The translations under genes and the position numbers were made by a program. A stretch of DNA of 60,559 bases from Calditrichota bacterium (GTDB taxonomy: Bacteria > CLD3). The notes beneath the pieces are model-generated. The model did not search any database, had not been told where the DNA came from, and saw only the letters and a list, made by a program, of their open reading frames with translations. Shown here one piece after another: positions 87 through 54,560 of this stretch. Within the stretch, counting starts at the first letter, position 1, and every line of letters starts with the position of its first letter. The stretch lies in assembly GCA_008501735.1 (NCBI GenBank), contig QQUF01000024.1, positions 1-60,559 of the forward strand, in the 5' to 3' direction.

Positions 87-977
87 GTGAAAAACCTTAT
101 TGTCAAATCTGAAGACGAAATTGAAAAATTCACTTCTCAAATTGCATTTTCAGGCTTAGACGCTTCGGTAGCTGTAGATTTAGAATTTCGTTGTGCAAAT
201 AGCGGAATGGCTGTTGTAAGTAATGCAAGGAACTTTCGAATGGAAAAAGAAGTTCCGCTTTTAATTCCAGAAATCAACCCTGAGCACCTAACTGTAATTT
301 CCGAGCAAAAGGAAAAATTTGGTTTTAACGAAGGTTTCATTGTTACAAATTCAAATTGCTCAACAATGTTTCTGGCAATGGTTTTGGGAGTAATTGCCAA
401 AAAATTCACAATTGAAAAAACTTTAGTAACTACAATGCAAGCAGTTTCAGGAGCAGGTTATCCGGGCGTTGCTTCATTGGATATTTTGGGAAATGTAGTT
501 CCATTCATTGGTGGTGAAGAAGAAAAAATTGAAACCGAAACTCTAAAGATCTTGGGTAAAGTTGAAGATTCTGAAATCATTTCTGCAAACTTCAATTTGA
601 GTGCAAGTGTAAACAGAGTTCCAGTTGTTGATGGACATTTGGAAAGCGTTTCGTTCAAGCTCAGAGAAGCAACTAACGTAAACGAATTAAAAGAAATCTT
701 AACAAACTTTACAGCTTTACCTCAAGAATTAAAATTACCAACTGCACCCAAGAAGCCGGTTATAGTTTTAGAAAATGAAGACAGACCTCAACCAAAATTA
801 GACGTAAATAAAAACAATGGAATGGCAACTTTTGTTGGAAGAATTCGCAAATGTAAAGTGTTAGACTACAAAATGATGGTTCTCGGACACAATACAATTC
901 GAGGTGCTGCAGGTGCTGCAATTTTAAATGCAGAGCTTTTAGTAAAACAAGGTTTAATCCAAACAAAAGGTGATTAA
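87..977 (+). CDS. asd: Aspartate-semialdehyde dehydrogenase (archaeal/fungal type), N-terminus separated by a stop
   Basis: This enzyme makes aspartate 4-semialdehyde from aspartyl phosphate with NADPH, the branch point to lysine/diaminopimelate, threonine and methionine. The visible part holds the catalytic Cys91 in a TNSNCST motif, the QAVSGAGYPG segment at 119-127 and the active-site His184 (DGH). The Ile-Gly-Gly-Glu-Glu-Glu-Lys run near 141-147 is typical of the archaeal/fungal subfamily. The family is usually about 340-360 residues. The missing NADP-binding N-terminus lies upstream in the same frame (3-86 and beyond), separated only by TAA 84-86. GTG 87 has no ribosome-binding site in front of it, so it is probably not a natural start. 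The gene is followed directly by the M20 gene at 978. Confidence 0.85.
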   Translation: MKNLIVKSEDEIEKFTSQIAFSGLDASVAVDLEFRCANSGMAVVSNARNFRMEKEVPLLIPEINPEHLTVISEQKEKFGFNEGFIVTNSNCSTMFLAMVLGVIAKKFTIEKTLVTTMQAVSGAGYPGVASLDILGNVVPFIGGEEEKIETETLKILGKVEDSEIISANFNLSASVNRVPVVDGHLESVSFKLREATNVNELKEILTNFTALPQELKLPTAPKKPVIVLENEDRPQPKLDVNKNNGMATFVGRIRKCKVLDYKMMVLGHNTIRGAAGAAILNAELLVKQGLIQTKGD

Positions 978-2168
978 ATGAGTTGGAAAGCAATTTCTTT
1001 AGCTCACGATAAACTTTCTCAAAATGCAATTGAGTTTTGCCAGAAACTAATCCAAACTCCAAGTTATCCTGGTAAAGAGCGAAATTGTGCTGAATTAATT
1101 TTAAGCAAGATGGGTGGTTTAAGATTTGATAAAACCGAAATTGACAAAGCTGGGAATGTTCTTGGGTTTGTCAAAGGAACTGTCCCAAATTCTCCTAAAA
1201 TTTTACTTGCAACGCACATTGACCACGTTGGTTTTGAAGACCAAGAAATGTGGCAATTTCCTCCTTTTGAAGCAATAATTTCTGGCAGAAAAATATTTGG
1301 AAGAGGAGCCGCAGAAGCAAAAAGTGCAATTTCTGCACAAATCTACGGAGTTGCTGCCATTTTGGAAGCTGGTTTCAGACCGACAAATGATATTCATTTA
1401 GCATTTTGTGTTCAGGAAGAAACTGGCGGAACTGGAATGCGATATTTTGTAAATAAAGAAGAAAATAAAATTGATTTAGCAATTTTTGGTAACGCTACTT
1501 CAAATAATATTTACTTGGGGCATCGAGGAGTCGCAAACATTGAATTAATTTTCAAAGGGCAATCAGCTCACGCTTCAAATCCAAATTCTGGTAAAAACCC
1601 ACATTTTCCTGCTGCAAAATTTTTGACTTTACTTGAAAATGAGATGCCAAATTTTTCCGAACATTATTTGCTTGGAAAAACAATTGCTTCCCCTACTCTT
1701 TACGAAATTGGAAAAACAAATATTAATGATATTCCAAGTGAAGTAAAAATCAATTTGAACTGGCGATTTTCCTCTGAGACAAAAGAAGAAATTTTGGAAA
1801 TAATTAACAAATTAACAAAACAGATAAATTTTGAAATTAATGTTCAGATTTGTAAGCAAAAAAATATAACTTACAATGGCTTTGATGAAGGCACTCAGGA
1901 ACATTTTTCAACTTCTTTCCTAACAAGTTCAGATTTGAATTTTGTTCAAAGTTCTGCAAAAGCAATTGAGCAAATTTCTGGGAAGAAACAAAATTTTGGA
2001 ATTTGGAAATCAGCAACCGATGCAAGATTTGTAGCTGAAAAAGGAATCCCAACTTTTGGTTTTGGACCTGGACACGAAAGTTTAGTTCACCAAAAAGATG
2101 AATTTGTTGAAATTGAAATGCTCATTGAAGCAATGAAATGTTACTCAAAATTTATTTATAAAAATTAA
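978..2168 (+). CDS. M20-family metallohydrolase (YgeY/ArgE-like), divergent metal site
   Basis: This is a 396-residue member of the M20 peptidase/deacetylase family, which hydrolyses amide bonds of amino-acid derivatives or short peptides with two zinc ions. The fold markers are present in order: THIDHVG (first His and Asp), GRGAAEAK (usually GRGASDxK), the catalytic EE pair in VQEETGG, FGNATSNN before LGHRG, and a late His in LVHQKDE. Two metal positions differ from the family. The bridging Asp of SDxK is Glu here, and the Glu of the usual GEPT/GEAT motif is Asn. Function may therefore be altered. ATG 978 abuts the asd stop, with an AAAAGG-type ribosome-binding site at 965-970, so the two genes are likely co-transcribed. 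The substrate cannot be told. Confidence 0.75.
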   Translation: MSWKAISLAHDKLSQNAIEFCQKLIQTPSYPGKERNCAELILSKMGGLRFDKTEIDKAGNVLGFVKGTVPNSPKILLATHIDHVGFEDQEMWQFPPFEAIISGRKIFGRGAAEAKSAISAQIYGVAAILEAGFRPTNDIHLAFCVQEETGGTGMRYFVNKEENKIDLAIFGNATSNNIYLGHRGVANIELIFKGQSAHASNPNSGKNPHFPAAKFLTLLENEMPNFSEHYLLGKTIASPTLYEIGKTNINDIPSEVKINLNWRFSSETKEEILEIINKLTKQINFEINVQICKQKNITYNGFDEGTQEHFSTSFLTSSDLNFVQSSAKAIEQISGKKQNFGIWKSATDARFVAEKGIPTFGFGPGHESLVHQKDEFVEIEMLIEAMKCYSKFIYKN

Positions 2169-2173
2169 ATTTT

Positions 2174-2269
2174 GGAGGTGAAAGAGGAACTGGTGTCCTC
2201 CGCGGTCTTCAAAACCGTTTGTTCTGCAATCAAGTTGTGGAAGGTGAGTTCGATTCTCACACACCTCCG
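2174..2269 (+). tRNA. selC: tRNA-Sec (anticodon TCA)
   Basis: The sequence folds as a selenocysteine tRNA. The acceptor stem GGAGGTG (2174-2180) pairs with CACCTCC (2262-2268), and an eighth A-A position (2181/2261) is mismatched. The D stem is GAGGA/TCCTC (2184-2188/2196-2200). The anticodon stem GCGGT/ACCGT (2202-2206/2214-2218) closes the loop CTTCAAA with anticodon TCA at 2209-2211, which reads UGA. A long variable arm has eight pairs (2222-2229 with 2235-2242, including two G-T pairs). The T stem is GTGAG/CTCAC with loop TTCGATT. The discriminator is G2269 and CCA is not encoded. The long variable arm plus the UGA-reading anticodon separate it from serine or tryptophan tRNAs. It sits between two genes on the same strand. 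Confidence 0.93.
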
Positions 2270-2293
2270 TTATTTTTTGGAAAAAGGTAAAAA

Positions 2294-2929
2294 ATGAAAA
2301 TTGTACAAAATGAAATTGAACAGTACGCACTAAAACACACGACAAAATCAGACAAGATTTTTGAAGAATTAAAATCCGAAACTTATGAACAATCTGATTG
2401 CCCACAAATGTTAATAGGTGATTTAGAAGGCACACTTTTACAGCTTTTAGTAAAAATGTCGGGAGCAAAAAATGCTTTAGAAATTGGTATGTTTACAGGT
2501 TATAGCGGATTAAGAATCGCTTCTGCTCTACCAGAAGACGGGAAATTAATTTGTTGCGATGTAAATCCTGAAACTTCAAAGATTGCTCGAAAATATTTTG
2601 ATAAAAGTGGTTACGGACATAAAATTGAAATCAAACTTGCACCCGCATTAGAAACTCTTGAAACTCATAAAAATGAGAAATTCGATTTCGTTTTTATTGA
2701 TGCAGACAAAGAAAACTATCCAAATTATTTCAACAAAGTGATTGAAATGGTTCCATCTGGTGGTTTAATTTTGATTGATAATTGTATTTGGAGCGGTGAT
2801 GTTTTAGACCCAAAAACCCCAGAAGCAAAAGCAATTAACTTGGTAAATCAAATGGTTGTTGCAGACCCAAGAGTTGAAAATACTTTGTTGACAATTCGCG
2901 ATGGGATTATGCTCATTAGAAAAAAATAA
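2294..2929 (+). CDS. Class I SAM-dependent O-methyltransferase (family 3)
   Basis: This 211-residue protein belongs to the cation-dependent O-methyltransferase family (caffeoyl-CoA OMT-like; bacterial relatives act on catechols or tRNA hydroxyuridine, TrmR). The SAM-binding motif ALEIGMFTGYSG is at 61-72, an acidic ribose-binding segment CCDVNPE at 87-93, and the metal-binding FIDADKENY and IDN segments near 134-142 and 161-163. Length is normal for the family. There is no signal peptide, so it is cytoplasmic. A GG-rich ribosome-binding site precedes ATG 2294. It follows the selC gene by 24 bases and precedes a glycosyltransferase by 17. The substrate is not evident. Confidence 0.85.
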   Translation: MKIVQNEIEQYALKHTTKSDKIFEELKSETYEQSDCPQMLIGDLEGTLLQLLVKMSGAKNALEIGMFTGYSGLRIASALPEDGKLICCDVNPETSKIARKYFDKSGYGHKIEIKLAPALETLETHKNEKFDFVFIDADKENYPNYFNKVIEMVPSGGLILIDNCIWSGDVLDPKTPEAKAINLVNQMVVADPRVENTLLTIRDGIMLIRKK

Positions 2930-10794: not shown

Positions 10795-11850
10795 ATGCTT
10801 AAAACTTTAATTTTCATTACTCTACTCTGCTCAAATGCCTTTGCACAAAATGGTTTTGAACAAGCCAAAAAATTATTCGAAGATGCCCAAAGATTTGAAG
10901 CAGAAAAAATTCTTAAAAACCTTCCTCAAAAAAACGAAACAATTTTTCTACTTGGAAAAATCTACTACTACGAAGGGAATTACGAAAAAGCAAACGAGCA
11001 ATTTGAAAAGATTATCAGCCAAAACCCAAATGTTGGAGAATACCATTTGTGGAGTGGTAAAAATAACTCTAAAAGAGTCGCAAAAGTGAATTTCTTGAAA
11101 AAAGCATTCATCGCCAATTCAATGAAAAATGACTTTAAAAATGCAATAAAATTAGAGCCTAACAACTTGGAAGCAAGAATTAGTTTGTTTGAATTTTATT
11201 TGCAAGCTCCAATGATTGCAGGTGGAAGTGTTTCAAAAGCAAAAAATGAAGCTAAGGCAATCTTCAAATTTGATAAAATTCAAGGGTTAATTGCAGAAAG
11301 TAGAATTGAGGAAGTTGATGGATTAGAAAGCAAAGCAGAAAAGATACTTTTGGAAGCTAAAAAGGAATTTTCAAATGAAGCTGAACTTAATTTTGCTTTA
11401 GTCCAATTTTATAAAAGGACTGAGCAAAATGAGAAGTACATTCAGGCTCTAATTGAAATTTCTAAAATTTTCCCAAATGAAAAATCTTCAACATTTTTTG
11501 AGTTAGGACTTACCGAACAAAGGAACGAAAATTACAAAGAAGCTTTTGAATTTTTTGAAAAGTCAATTCAAGCTGATTCAACAAATTTTGCTTCTTACTA
11601 CCAATTTGCAAGGACAAGTATTTTTGCAAATTTACATTTAGAAAAAGGTAGAGATTACTTAACTAACTACATTCAAAACAACAGAGATAACTCAAGCCCT
11701 TCAAAATCTTGGGCAAATTTTAGACTTGGATTAATTTATGAGAAGTTAAAGGACTTTGACAAAGCTAAGTTTCATTTTAAAGAATCCTTAAGGTTTAATC
11801 CCAAAAATGAAAAAGCCAAAAAAGCATTAAAAAAAATTGAATTAAATTGA
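10795..11850 (+). CDS. Exported tetratricopeptide-repeat protein
   Basis: The protein has 351 residues and a Sec signal peptide of about 17 residues (cleavage after AFA). Several TPR helices follow: AKKLFEDAQRFEAEKIL, IYYYEGNYEKANEQFEK, ELGLTEQRNENYKEAFEFFEK and a final YEKLKDFDKAKFHFKESL. TPR domains mediate protein contacts, here in the periplasm. The start is ATG 10795, with AAAAGGAG ahead of it inside the end of the membrane-protein gene. It ends with TGA, showing that UGA is used as a normal stop here. It is operonic with the DUF2306-like gene. The specific role is not recognisable. Confidence 0.75.
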   Translation: MLKTLIFITLLCSNAFAQNGFEQAKKLFEDAQRFEAEKILKNLPQKNETIFLLGKIYYYEGNYEKANEQFEKIISQNPNVGEYHLWSGKNNSKRVAKVNFLKKAFIANSMKNDFKNAIKLEPNNLEARISLFEFYLQAPMIAGGSVSKAKNEAKAIFKFDKIQGLIAESRIEEVDGLESKAEKILLEAKKEFSNEAELNFALVQFYKRTEQNEKYIQALIEISKIFPNEKSSTFFELGLTEQRNENYKEAFEFFEKSIQADSTNFASYYQFARTSIFANLHLEKGRDYLTNYIQNNRDNSSPSKSWANFRLGLIYEKLKDFDKAKFHFKESLRFNPKNEKAKKALKKIELN

Positions 11851-14833: not shown

Positions 14834-16855
14834 ATGCAAGAATTTAAAAAAACAGTTTGTGCTCACGATTGCCCTGACCAATGCGGAATGGTCGTAAAAC
14901 TCGAAAATGGAAAAATTGTCGGAGTTGACGGAGACAAAGAACACCCAATGACACAAGGTTTCCTTTGCGGAAAAGTCAAAGACGAATGGGAAACGGTTTA
15001 CTCGGACAAAAGAGTGAAATTCCCGATGAAAAGAATCGGTAAAAAAGGTGAAGGAAGATTTGAGCGAATTTCTTGGGAAGAAGCATTTGCAACCATTAAA
15101 AACAAAATCAACGAAACTTCTGAAAAATTTGGTTCGGAATCAATAATGCCTTACTCTTACGCAGGAAATATGGGACTAATTGCTCGCAAAATCGGAGACA
15201 GATTTTTTCACAAACTTGGAGCTTCAAGGCTTGACAGAACAATTTGTTCAACAGCTTCAACGGCAGGAATTGAAGCTTCTATAGGAGCCGAACTTTCTCC
15301 TTCTTGGAACAACATTGAAAATTCAAAATTCATTTTAATTTGGGGCTCGAACATCGTTTCGACGAATGTCCACCTTTTACCTTTTGTGAAAAAAGCACAA
15401 GAAAACGGAGCCGAAGTTTTTTGCATTGACCCTTACCGTAACCGAACAGCAAAAATGTCCGACAAACACATTCCGATTCGCCCTGGAACTGACACAGCTT
15501 TAGCTTTGGGAATTATTCGCGAAATCATTAACAACAAATTTTACGACGAACATTTTGTAAAAAATTCCACAAATGGTTTTGAAGAACTTTCGGAAGCCTG
15601 CCAAAGTTACACTTTAGAAAAAGTCGAAGAAATCACAGGAATTCCTGCAAACTTAACCAAAGAGATTGCTAAAAAATTACACTCTGCCCAACCCTCTTTA
15701 ATCAAAATCGGAATCGGAATGTCTCGCCAAATTTACGGTGCAACAGCAATCCGAACAATTTACGCAATTCCTTGTTTGCTTGGCTCTTGGAAACAAGTTG
15801 GAGGAGGAGCAATTTTGGAATCTGGCGGAATTTTTGATGTTGATACTTCCGTTGTTACTCGTGAAGATTTGGAGCCAAAAGAAACTCGGCTGATAAATAT
15901 GGTCGAACTCGGCAAAGCCTTAACCGAACTTAAAAATCCACCCGTGAAATTTCTTTTTGTTTGGAACTCAAATCCTGCGATTGTTTGCCCTGATTCTTCA
16001 AAAGTAATTGCAGGCTTGAAACGTGAAGATTTGTTTACAGTCGTTCACGAAAGAATTTGGTCAGACACAACAAAATTCGCTGATTTGGTTCTTCCTTCAA
16101 CGATTTACTACGAAAACACGGATTTTTATAAAAGCTACGGACATCACTTTGCTCAAATGACAAAACCTGTTGTTGAACCTCAGTTTGAAACAAAATCCAA
16201 CTTTGAACTTTTCCAAACTCTAGGCAAAGTTATGGGTTTTGAAGACGAGTGTTTTGATGAAACGGAAGAAGAATTAATTTCCAAAATTATCAAACCTTGG
16301 GAAGGCAAAACTATTTCGGATTTTGAGGTAGGTGAACCTGTTCGTGCCAAAATTCCCGAACACTACCAACCTTTTGCCGACGGAAAATTTTATACCAAAT
16401 CAGGAAAAGCCGAACTTTGGGACAATTCTTTGGTTGATTCTCCAAATTACAAACCTTCACCCGAGGGACATCAAGCTGCGAAAATTAAGAAATTCCCCTT
16501 GCAACTCATCACAGGAGCTTCACATAATTTTTTGAACTCAAGTTTTGGCGAATCCGAAAAAAATCGTAAAAGAGAAAAAGAACCAAAAATCAAAATCAAT
16601 CCTCAAGACGCTCAAAAACGTGGAATTTCAAACGGTTCGGAAGTCAAACTTTACAGCGAAAATGGATATTGTTTTCTCAAAGCTGAAATTACAGAAGATG
16701 TAAAAAAAGGAATTGTAGTTTCAGAATCTCTTTGGTGGAATGAAAAAACAAAAGAAACAAGAGGTTTGAACTTTGTTACTTCAAGCAAAATTACAGACTT
16801 TGGTGGTTGTTCAACAATTCACGCCAATTTAGTTGAAGTAATGACTAATGATTAA
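14834..16855 (+). CDS. Molybdopterin (bis-MGD) oxidoreductase, formate dehydrogenase-like family
   Basis: This 673-residue enzyme belongs to the DMSO-reductase superfamily. Its N-terminal 4Fe-4S site comes from C9, C13, C17 and C45 (CAHDCPDQC then FLCGK). The predicted metal ligand is Cys138 in DRTICSTAS. The middle domains hold the IWGSNIVSTNVH and PGTDTALALG cofactor segments. The C-terminal molydop-binding domain includes GASHNFLNSS and the INPQDAQKRGI segment. There is no Tat signal, so it is cytoplasmic. The subfamily is annotated loosely as formate dehydrogenase or general oxidoreductase, and the substrate cannot be stated. No electron-transfer subunit is adjacent, so it may act alone. 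The ligand is encoded as Cys, not UGA, so it is not a selenoprotein. Confidence 0.85.
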   Translation: MQEFKKTVCAHDCPDQCGMVVKLENGKIVGVDGDKEHPMTQGFLCGKVKDEWETVYSDKRVKFPMKRIGKKGEGRFERISWEEAFATIKNKINETSEKFGSESIMPYSYAGNMGLIARKIGDRFFHKLGASRLDRTICSTASTAGIEASIGAELSPSWNNIENSKFILIWGSNIVSTNVHLLPFVKKAQENGAEVFCIDPYRNRTAKMSDKHIPIRPGTDTALALGIIREIINNKFYDEHFVKNSTNGFEELSEACQSYTLEKVEEITGIPANLTKEIAKKLHSAQPSLIKIGIGMSRQIYGATAIRTIYAIPCLLGSWKQVGGGAILESGGIFDVDTSVVTREDLEPKETRLINMVELGKALTELKNPPVKFLFVWNSNPAIVCPDSSKVIAGLKREDLFTVVHERIWSDTTKFADLVLPSTIYYENTDFYKSYGHHFAQMTKPVVEPQFETKSNFELFQTLGKVMGFEDECFDETEEELISKIIKPWEGKTISDFEVGEPVRAKIPEHYQPFADGKFYTKSGKAELWDNSLVDSPNYKPSPEGHQAAKIKKFPLQLITGASHNFLNSSFGESEKNRKREKEPKIKINPQDAQKRGISNGSEVKLYSENGYCFLKAEITEDVKKGIVVSESLWWNEKTKETRGLNFVTSSKITDFGGCSTIHANLVEVMTND

Positions 16856-50145: not shown

Positions 50146-50874
50146 ATGAAAATCCAATTTCTTGGAACAGGTGCAGCAGCGAATCACGGAAGATATAATT
50201 CTTCAATTTTGATAAACGATAAAATACTTTTAGATTGCGGTCCTACATCTGTCGCCAATTTGAAAAAAATTGGATTAAAAACTGAAGACATTTCAACAAT
50301 TTTCATTTCTCATTTACACGGAGACCATTTCATAGGGTTACCATTTTTCTTTTTAGATTCTGTTATTTTGGAAAAAAGACAGAATCCTCTTATTTTAGTT
50401 GCACCAAAAGAAACGATTTCCAAAGTTCTAAAAATTGCAGAAATAGTTTATGGAGGCTCTTTGAAGAAAAAATTGCTTTTGGACTACCCCCTAAATTTTG
50501 TTTCTATTGAAGGAAGTTTTTATGAAGAAGAAATTTCTGAGTGCAATTTTCAGGCTATTCAAACAAAGCACGGTGAAGAACTTGCTTACAATCTAATTTT
50601 AGATTTTAATGGCAAAAAACTTGGTTATAGTGGCGACTCAGAATTCTGCGAAACTTTACAACAAACTGCCTCTAAAGTTGACGTAATGATTTGCGAAAGA
50701 ACTTCACCAAAAGAAAAACTAAAAGGACATTGTTGTGGTGATGAAATTGAGATTTTAGCAAAAGGAATGAAAACAGACAGTAATTTGATTTTGACACACT
50801 TCGTAGAAACAGAAATTCAAAACTCTAATCCAAATTTTATCTATCCAAACGACTTTGAAAAATTTTACTTTTAA
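50146..50874 (+). CDS. RNase Z-like metallo-beta-lactamase-fold hydrolase
   Basis: The protein is 242 residues. The N-terminus MKIQFLGTGAAANHGRYNSS is typical of the RNase Z/ElaC and PhnP-like branch. The zinc motif HLHGDH (56-61) is followed by further ligands: His in QTKHGEEL, Asp in YSGDSEFC and His in ILTHFVETE. It may process tRNA 3' ends or cleave a phosphodiester. It is shorter than true RNase Z (about 300) and lacks a clear flexible exosite arm, so a related phosphodiesterase is possible. ATG 50146 fits the family start; GTG 50128 is in frame upstream. Confidence 0.75.
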   Translation: MKIQFLGTGAAANHGRYNSSILINDKILLDCGPTSVANLKKIGLKTEDISTIFISHLHGDHFIGLPFFFLDSVILEKRQNPLILVAPKETISKVLKIAEIVYGGSLKKKLLLDYPLNFVSIEGSFYEEEISECNFQAIQTKHGEELAYNLILDFNGKKLGYSGDSEFCETLQQTASKVDVMICERTSPKEKLKGHCCGDEIEILAKGMKTDSNLILTHFVETEIQNSNPNFIYPNDFEKFYF

Positions 50875-54112: not shown

Positions 54113-54560
54113 AAAACCTTCCGCATTTAATTGCCGAGTTTACGGAATCTTAACCCAAAAGAATCAAATTTTAATTTCTCGTGAAAAATATGATGAAATT
54201 GAAATAATGAAATTTCCTGGTGGCGGAATTGAACTTGGAGAATCTCCAGAGGAAGCCCTTATTCGTGAGTTTGCAGAAGAAGCAAATGCGAAAATTAGAA
54301 TTGATGAATTCATAAACGTTTCAAAAAAATTTCACAAGTCAGTTTTTAACGGCACACAACTAATCGCACTTTATTGGAAAGTCTCACTTTTAGAAGATGA
54401 AAAAATCACAACACACAAAGAGCTAATTCCAACTGGTGAGAAACCGAATAGTTTTTACCAACTCTTTTGGGCAAACATTTTTGATTTGAATGAAGATTTC
54501 TTTACCTTCGCCACCGAAAAAGAAACGTTCAAAAAATTCAAACAAAGTTATTCAAAATGA
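54102..54560 (+). CDS. NUDIX hydrolase
   Basis: This 152-residue cytoplasmic NUDIX enzyme hydrolyses nucleoside diphosphates linked to another group X. The NUDIX box is at about 40-62 (GGGIELGESPEEALIREFAEEAN), with the REFAEE catalytic helix. The last Gly of the consensus is Asn here. It overlaps the NAT gene by 11 bases upstream and the MBL gene by four bases downstream (ATGA), so translation is coupled. The substrate is unknown. The stop is UGA. Confidence 0.9.
   Translation: MSHKKPSAFNCRVYGILTQKNQILISREKYDEIEIMKFPGGGIELGESPEEALIREFAEEANAKIRIDEFINVSKKFHKSVFNGTQLIALYWKVSLLEDEKITTHKELIPTGEKPNSFYQLFWANIFDLNEDFFTFATEKETFKKFKQSYSK

Follow-up and report, generated by a model that had tools for sequence, protein, structure and literature searches.

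A tRNA-Sec gene with an A-A mismatch at pair 8, and the accompanying selenocysteine genes, in a member of the Calditrichota

The stretch of DNA analysed here (the window; 60,559 nucleotides) is contig C16 of a 4.14-Mb Calditrichota genome in 59 contigs that is rated 100% complete. ARAGORN called a single tRNA in the window, a tRNA-SeC with anticodon TCA at 2174-2269 on the forward strand (Table 1). A cmscan search matched positions 2174-2268 to the tRNA-Sec family RF01852 with 61 bits (E = 9e-12), above the Rfam gathering score of 47. When the RF01852 matches of the whole genome were ranked, this gene came first, and the runner-up, a tRNA-Ser at 44 bits, fell under that cut-off. The covariance model thus prefers tRNA-Sec for this gene over the serine tRNA encoded elsewhere in the genome. 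The initial annotation had described a tRNA for UGA with a long variable arm, and ARAGORN, RF01852 and the predicted fold all agree with that description.

The predicted fold of selC is a complete cloverleaf with an energy of -36.4 kcal/mol (z = -3.3 compared with shuffles, 0 of 200 of which were as good). The acceptor strands GGAGGUGA and ACACCUCC, together with GUGAG/CUCAC of the T stem, give the 8/5 geometry, with 12 pairs plus one A-A; the mismatch reported earlier at acceptor pair eight is therefore real. The D stem has six pairs and a 4-nt loop, with one bulge, the anticodon is UCA, and the gene has both a long variable arm and G73. On every testable feature, positions 2174-2269 are a genuine bacterial tRNA-Sec gene.

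Table 1. Genes and structural elements at the selC locus, in window positions.
Feature	Positions	Strand	Evidence
argC-like semialdehyde dehydrogenase gene; precedes the M20 gene both in the window and in the relative G001	87..977	+	Pfam PF02774, synteny
M20-family peptidase/deacylase gene (argE-like), ends 5 nt 5' of selC	978..2168	+	Pfam PF01546, synteny
selC, tRNA-Sec(UCA), 96 nt including discriminator G73, CCA not encoded	2174..2269	+	ARAGORN; RF01852 61 bits; sequence
5' strand of the acceptor stem, GGAGGUGA; seven pairs, then the A2181/A2261 mismatch (pair 8)	2174..2181	+	sequence, fold
D arm GAGGA(a)C-UGGU-GUCCUC; 6 pairs, bulged A2189, 4-nt loop	2184..2200	+	fold, RF01852 alignment
Anticodon arm GCGGU-CUUCAAA-ACCGU; anticodon UCA at 2209-2211	2202..2218	+	ARAGORN, fold
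Variable arm, 9 pairs, 3-nt loop	2222..2242	+	fold
T arm GUGAG-UUCGAUU-CUCAC, 5 Watson-Crick pairs	2244..2260	+	sequence, fold
Acceptor stem 3' strand ACACCUCC plus discriminator G2269	2261..2269	+	sequence
T run TTATTTTTTGGA directly 3' of selC; possible transcription end	2270..2281	+	sequence
O-methyltransferase gene after selC	2294..2929	+	Pfam PF01596

The flanking M20 hydrolase and methyltransferase genes named in the initial annotation were confirmed by their Pfam domains. We compared nine genomes of the phylum (G000-G008), among which G001 is the only other member of the window genome's family. In G001 an M20 gene likewise precedes selC, with a gap of 8 nt, and a T7 run is found at the equivalent place behind it. 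The order argC-M20-selC-glycosyltransferase is common to the window and G001; the O-methyltransferase gene lies between selC and the glycosyltransferase gene in the window only, and no such gene adjoining selC was found in G001 by tblastn. A sigma-70-like promoter was sought upstream of selC and none was found. Because selC follows the M20 gene by only 5 or 8 nt, has no promoter-like site ahead of it and is followed by a T run in both genomes, it is likely to be transcribed together with the arg genes.

Searches of the whole genome recovered the three protein-coding genes of selenocysteine insertion, all above their curated cut-offs: selA on contig C52 (492 bits; cut-off 268), selB on contig C32 (371 bits; cut-off 242) and selD on contig C46 (367 bits; cut-off 125). 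The selB product comprises the GTPase and the C-terminal SelB winged-helix domains 2 and 3. With selC, the system is spread over four different contigs, and selA, selB and selD are absent from the window because they are sited on the three others. These genes, along with at least seven selenoprotein genes, support the earlier proposal that the organism inserts selenocysteine. They also dissolve the puzzle of a selC with no selenoprotein in view, as the selenoprotein genes sit on other contigs.

The selenoprotein search covered SelD and four oxidoreductase families, with frames read through stops, so that the seven genes found (SelD and six others, each with UGA in frame at a site known to be catalytic) are a lower bound. 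In SelD the UGA is at the catalytic position in KCAGUASK, and in the formate dehydrogenase FdhA (TIGR01591, 777 bits) it lies in CAATUHAPTVAGL. The remaining genes encode a BCP-type peroxiredoxin (Prx; ADTPGUTIQG), two TlpA/ResA-like redoxins (WFGYSUPSC and FFGYNUSSC), a Thioredoxin_7-TPR protein (ASWUGPCK) whose gene is 2.5 kb from selD, and an AhpD-like protein (NGCHYUIIHH; TIGR01926, 147 bits). The motifs UHxP, TxxU, UxxC and CxxU are tabulated for such prokaryotic selenoprotein families in PMC13188914. We also noted that the two redoxins, L176 (7119-8270, reverse strand, contig C20) and L177 (4702-6189, reverse strand, contig C32), combine UxxC with a sorting domain for type IX secretion at the C terminus (TIGR04183, 31 and 35 bits, respectively; cut-off 23). 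Judged by these domains, they are apparently exported selenoproteins. The pairing of a UxxC redoxin with a type IX sorting domain is not named in the selenoprotein table of PMC13188914, as far as the available part of that source extends.

Each of the seven UGA codons is followed, 17 to 23 nt downstream, by a hairpin with a G among its first two loop bases. The hairpin after the FdhA UGA, with its GGUCU loop, presumably resembles the fdhF SECIS of E. coli. Five of the seven reached -5 kcal/mol or lower (Prx, -5.7; the redoxins, -9.7 and -8.7; FdhA, -5.5; the AhpD-like protein, -5.5), compared with 3% of control codons. The hairpin of the thioredoxin (WUGPC) was at -4.4 kcal/mol, the predicted SECIS of both f1 SelD genes was weak (-1.3 kcal/mol), and none was found for the SelD of G005 under the constrained model. 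The rules applied were those of the published bacterial SECIS model, as set out in PMC13188914, with an energy limit of -7.5 kcal/mol and a distance of 16 to 37 nt from the UGA. UGA-containing frames with SECIS-like stems had been suggested as a check in the initial annotation; the frames are there, in seven genes, and the stems are only partly convincing, with 2/7 candidates satisfying every rule of the model, the -7.5 limit included. Comparison of minimum free energies with those of shuffles over the 36 to 56 nt behind each UGA carried no information for SelD, Prx and Trx, and the constrained SECIS model was more useful.

Bacteria that use selenocysteine employ UGA both as a stop and for Sec, and a local mRNA hairpin directs Sec insertion. 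Among the window frames of at least 600 nt from stop to stop, 32 end in TAA, 8 in TAG and 4 in TGA. Two UGA stops singled out earlier, those of a TPR gene (11848-11850) and a NUDIX gene (54558-54560), both read TGA. They had been set against the presence of selC, a contrast that falls away in view of the double use of UGA by Sec-using bacteria. The FdhA frame itself reads ELS and then UGA, and because this end precedes a TAG by two codons, UGA probably serves twice in the FdhA message, once for Sec and once as the stop. UGA stops elsewhere are therefore no argument against Sec decoding. It had also been stated that no gene in the window is cut at an internal UGA; this was upheld by a scan of the window that produced no credible interrupted gene and a single weak candidate, at 50186 on the reverse strand, near codon-bias noise. 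The window does encode a molybdopterin oxidoreductase of the FdhA superfamily (14834-16855; PF00384, 168 bits), which is without any UGA and so is not a selenoprotein.

Of the nine genomes of the phylum, six carry a tRNA-Sec (G000, G001 and G005-G008), and selD, each copy with one UGA, was found in exactly the same six. Neither was found in G002-G004, which come from two genera of a second family; because two of these three genomes are rated 100% complete, the absence of the Sec system there is likely to be real. G001 retains the A-A at pair 8 and differs from the window selC at pair 6, where C-G replaces U-A, a compensatory change. The WUGPC protein, too, exists in G001 in a Sec form. In the tRNA-Sec of G005-G008 (L021 and L023-L025, about 1501-1594), which make up the other family, all eight acceptor pairs form, but the T stem pairs only if one C is bulged out (GU[C]GGG/CCCAC). 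The two families thus each deviate from a perfect 13-bp helix in their own manner. Beyond SelD, no selenoprotein was found in G005-G008 in the molybdopterin oxidoreductase, AhpC-TSA, Thioredoxin_7 and CMD families. We take the GGCA-GGUC-UGCC hairpin of SelD in G006 (L183) and G005 (L184) to resemble the apical loop of E. coli fdhF. It lies farther from the UGA than the 16 to 37 nt given for SECIS elements in the published model. The comparison documents a Sec system that is complete and apparently well used, serving seven or more selenoproteins; in this small phylum, three of the nine genomes are without one. As a finding this selC is ordinary, and its only novelty is that it adds to the catalogue of a phylum that has been little sampled. 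Its value lies in that addition, in the set of selenoproteins and in the corrected view of the mismatch.

The initial annotation suggested that, because of the A-A mismatch, the acceptor/T helix may be weaker than usual here. Two samples of bacterial tRNA-Sec were compared at this position. The first consisted of 80 named loci spread over many phyla, picked by D-loop and anticodon-arm sequence, together with six of this phylum. It yielded 65 distinct clear 8/5 tRNAs; 55 of these lack a standard pair at position 8, and seven of the 55 have A-A. The second came from the phylum to which an Oscillospiraceae genome belongs, with no selection on arm sequence, and yielded 83 tRNAs, of which 71 have a purine-purine combination at pair 8, mostly G-A. 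Across both samples pair 8 is mismatched in 126 of 148 distinct tRNA-Sec, counts that are inflated and not independent, as the sampled tRNAs are related. Ten tRNAs with an apparent 7-base acceptor were set aside from the counts (L054-L056, L060, L064, L067, L069, L091, L126 and L130). These ten belong to several members of the Verrucomicrobiales and Akkermansiaceae, to one of the Phycisphaerales and to three Spirochaetes, and their acceptor strand of apparently seven bases before G73 is similar to that of the 12-bp AT-stem type. Pairing at position 8 is not a defining property of bacterial tRNA-Sec, since 126 of the 148 lack it, and A-A at this position is normal for the class. The reading of the mismatch as an unusual weakness is thus unsupported, and an acceptor mismatch should neither signal decay nor cast doubt on tRNA-Sec calls.

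In E. coli tRNA-Sec, the antideterminant against EF-Tu consists of 7:66, 49:65 and 50:64 (PMC11231383). It therefore comprises pairs 8 to 10 in the present numbering, with 7:66 and 49:65 corresponding to pairs 8 and 9. Because pair 8 coincides with this EF-Tu-excluding region, the apparently weak spot may be functional, by analogy with E. coli. We tentatively suggest, as something that would extend the main reading and not compete with it, that purine-purine at pair 8 may be selected and replace the wobble at position 9 as the barrier to EF-Tu. In sample 1, 27 of 28 tRNAs with purine-purine at 8 have a Watson-Crick pair at 9, and C-G, U-C or A-C at 8 accompanies G-U at 9 in 33/35. Both states occur inside the Acidobacteria (L079 compared with L086 and L088) and inside the Actinobacteria. 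A mismatch or G-U is present at pair 8 or 9 in 144 of the 148 tRNA-Sec, and only four are Watson-Crick at both, compared with 29 of 41 ordinary tRNAs of the same loci at the corresponding places (the last acceptor pair is mismatched in one of the 41). Against this notion, the counts come from related sequences and are not independent, and G-G at 8 occurs together with G-U at 9 in 13 tRNAs of sample 2, so the exclusion is not strict. The wider generalization, that tRNA-Sec as a class keeps an irregularity at pair 8 or 9 (purine-purine at 8 or G-U at 9) that excludes EF-Tu, with the A-A of the window as one instance and a fully paired 13-bp helix as the exception, is possible and, on these counts, still doubtful.

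The mismatch might instead be the first sign of a decaying selC, and G002-G004, in which neither tRNA-Sec nor selD was found, indicate that the trait has been lost in the phylum or is unassembled there. However, the A-A is common to G001, where pair 6 has changed on both sides; many selenoprotein genes are present and intact; and a mismatch at pair 8 is found in the majority of bacterial tRNA-Sec. We regard decay as extremely improbable. An equally slight chance attaches to a serine tRNA, an opal suppressor or a look-alike (selC* tRNA-Cys or allo-tRNA), since the likeness among class II tRNAs, which takes the genome's own tRNA-Ser to its 44 bits with RF01852, is outweighed by the 61 bits of selC, its UCA anticodon, six-pair D stem, 4-nt loop, G73 and unbulged five-pair T stem, and by the presence in the genome of SelA, SelB and seven redox genes interrupted by UGA. 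selC* tRNA-Cys has U73, an 8/4 form and a bulge at 51a, and in allo-tRNAs the acceptor/T helix is 8/4 or 9/3 and the anticodon is mostly a different one (PMC7609411). G73 and the unbulged five-pair T stem exclude the former identity, and the five-pair T stem excludes the latter.

A functional selC within a standard bacterial Sec system is, with near certainty, the best explanation of the locus. In such a system the tRNA would be charged with serine by SerRS, and SelA would convert Ser-tRNA to Sec-tRNA using selenophosphate from SelD. SelB would then carry Sec-tRNA to those UGA codons with a SECIS hairpin behind them, and all remaining UGA codons would terminate translation.

Compared with known systems, the window selC shares with bacterial tRNA-Sec (RF01852) the UCA anticodon, the 8/5 layout, the six-pair D stem with its 4-nt loop, the long variable arm, G73 and a genome with selA, selB and selD. 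It differs in the A-A at pair 8 (a mismatch there being common in bacteria), the bulged A of the D stem and the lack of an encoded CCA. In the tRNA-Sec with a 12-bp AT stem (the Cloacimonetes type and others), one acceptor-strand nucleotide is missing, giving 7+5, and D-stem bulges have been reported (PMC5330540). The window selC resembles this type in that its acceptor/T helix has, in effect, 12 canonical pairs and its D stem a bulge; unlike it, it has the eighth position on both strands, mismatched. Assignment to the Cloacimonetes type was rejected, as no acceptor nucleotide is missing. With the E. coli Sec system (SelA, SelB, SelC, SelD and FdhF) the genome has all four components in common; it differs in that SelD is itself a selenoprotein and in that selA, selB, selC and selD each lie on a contig of their own.
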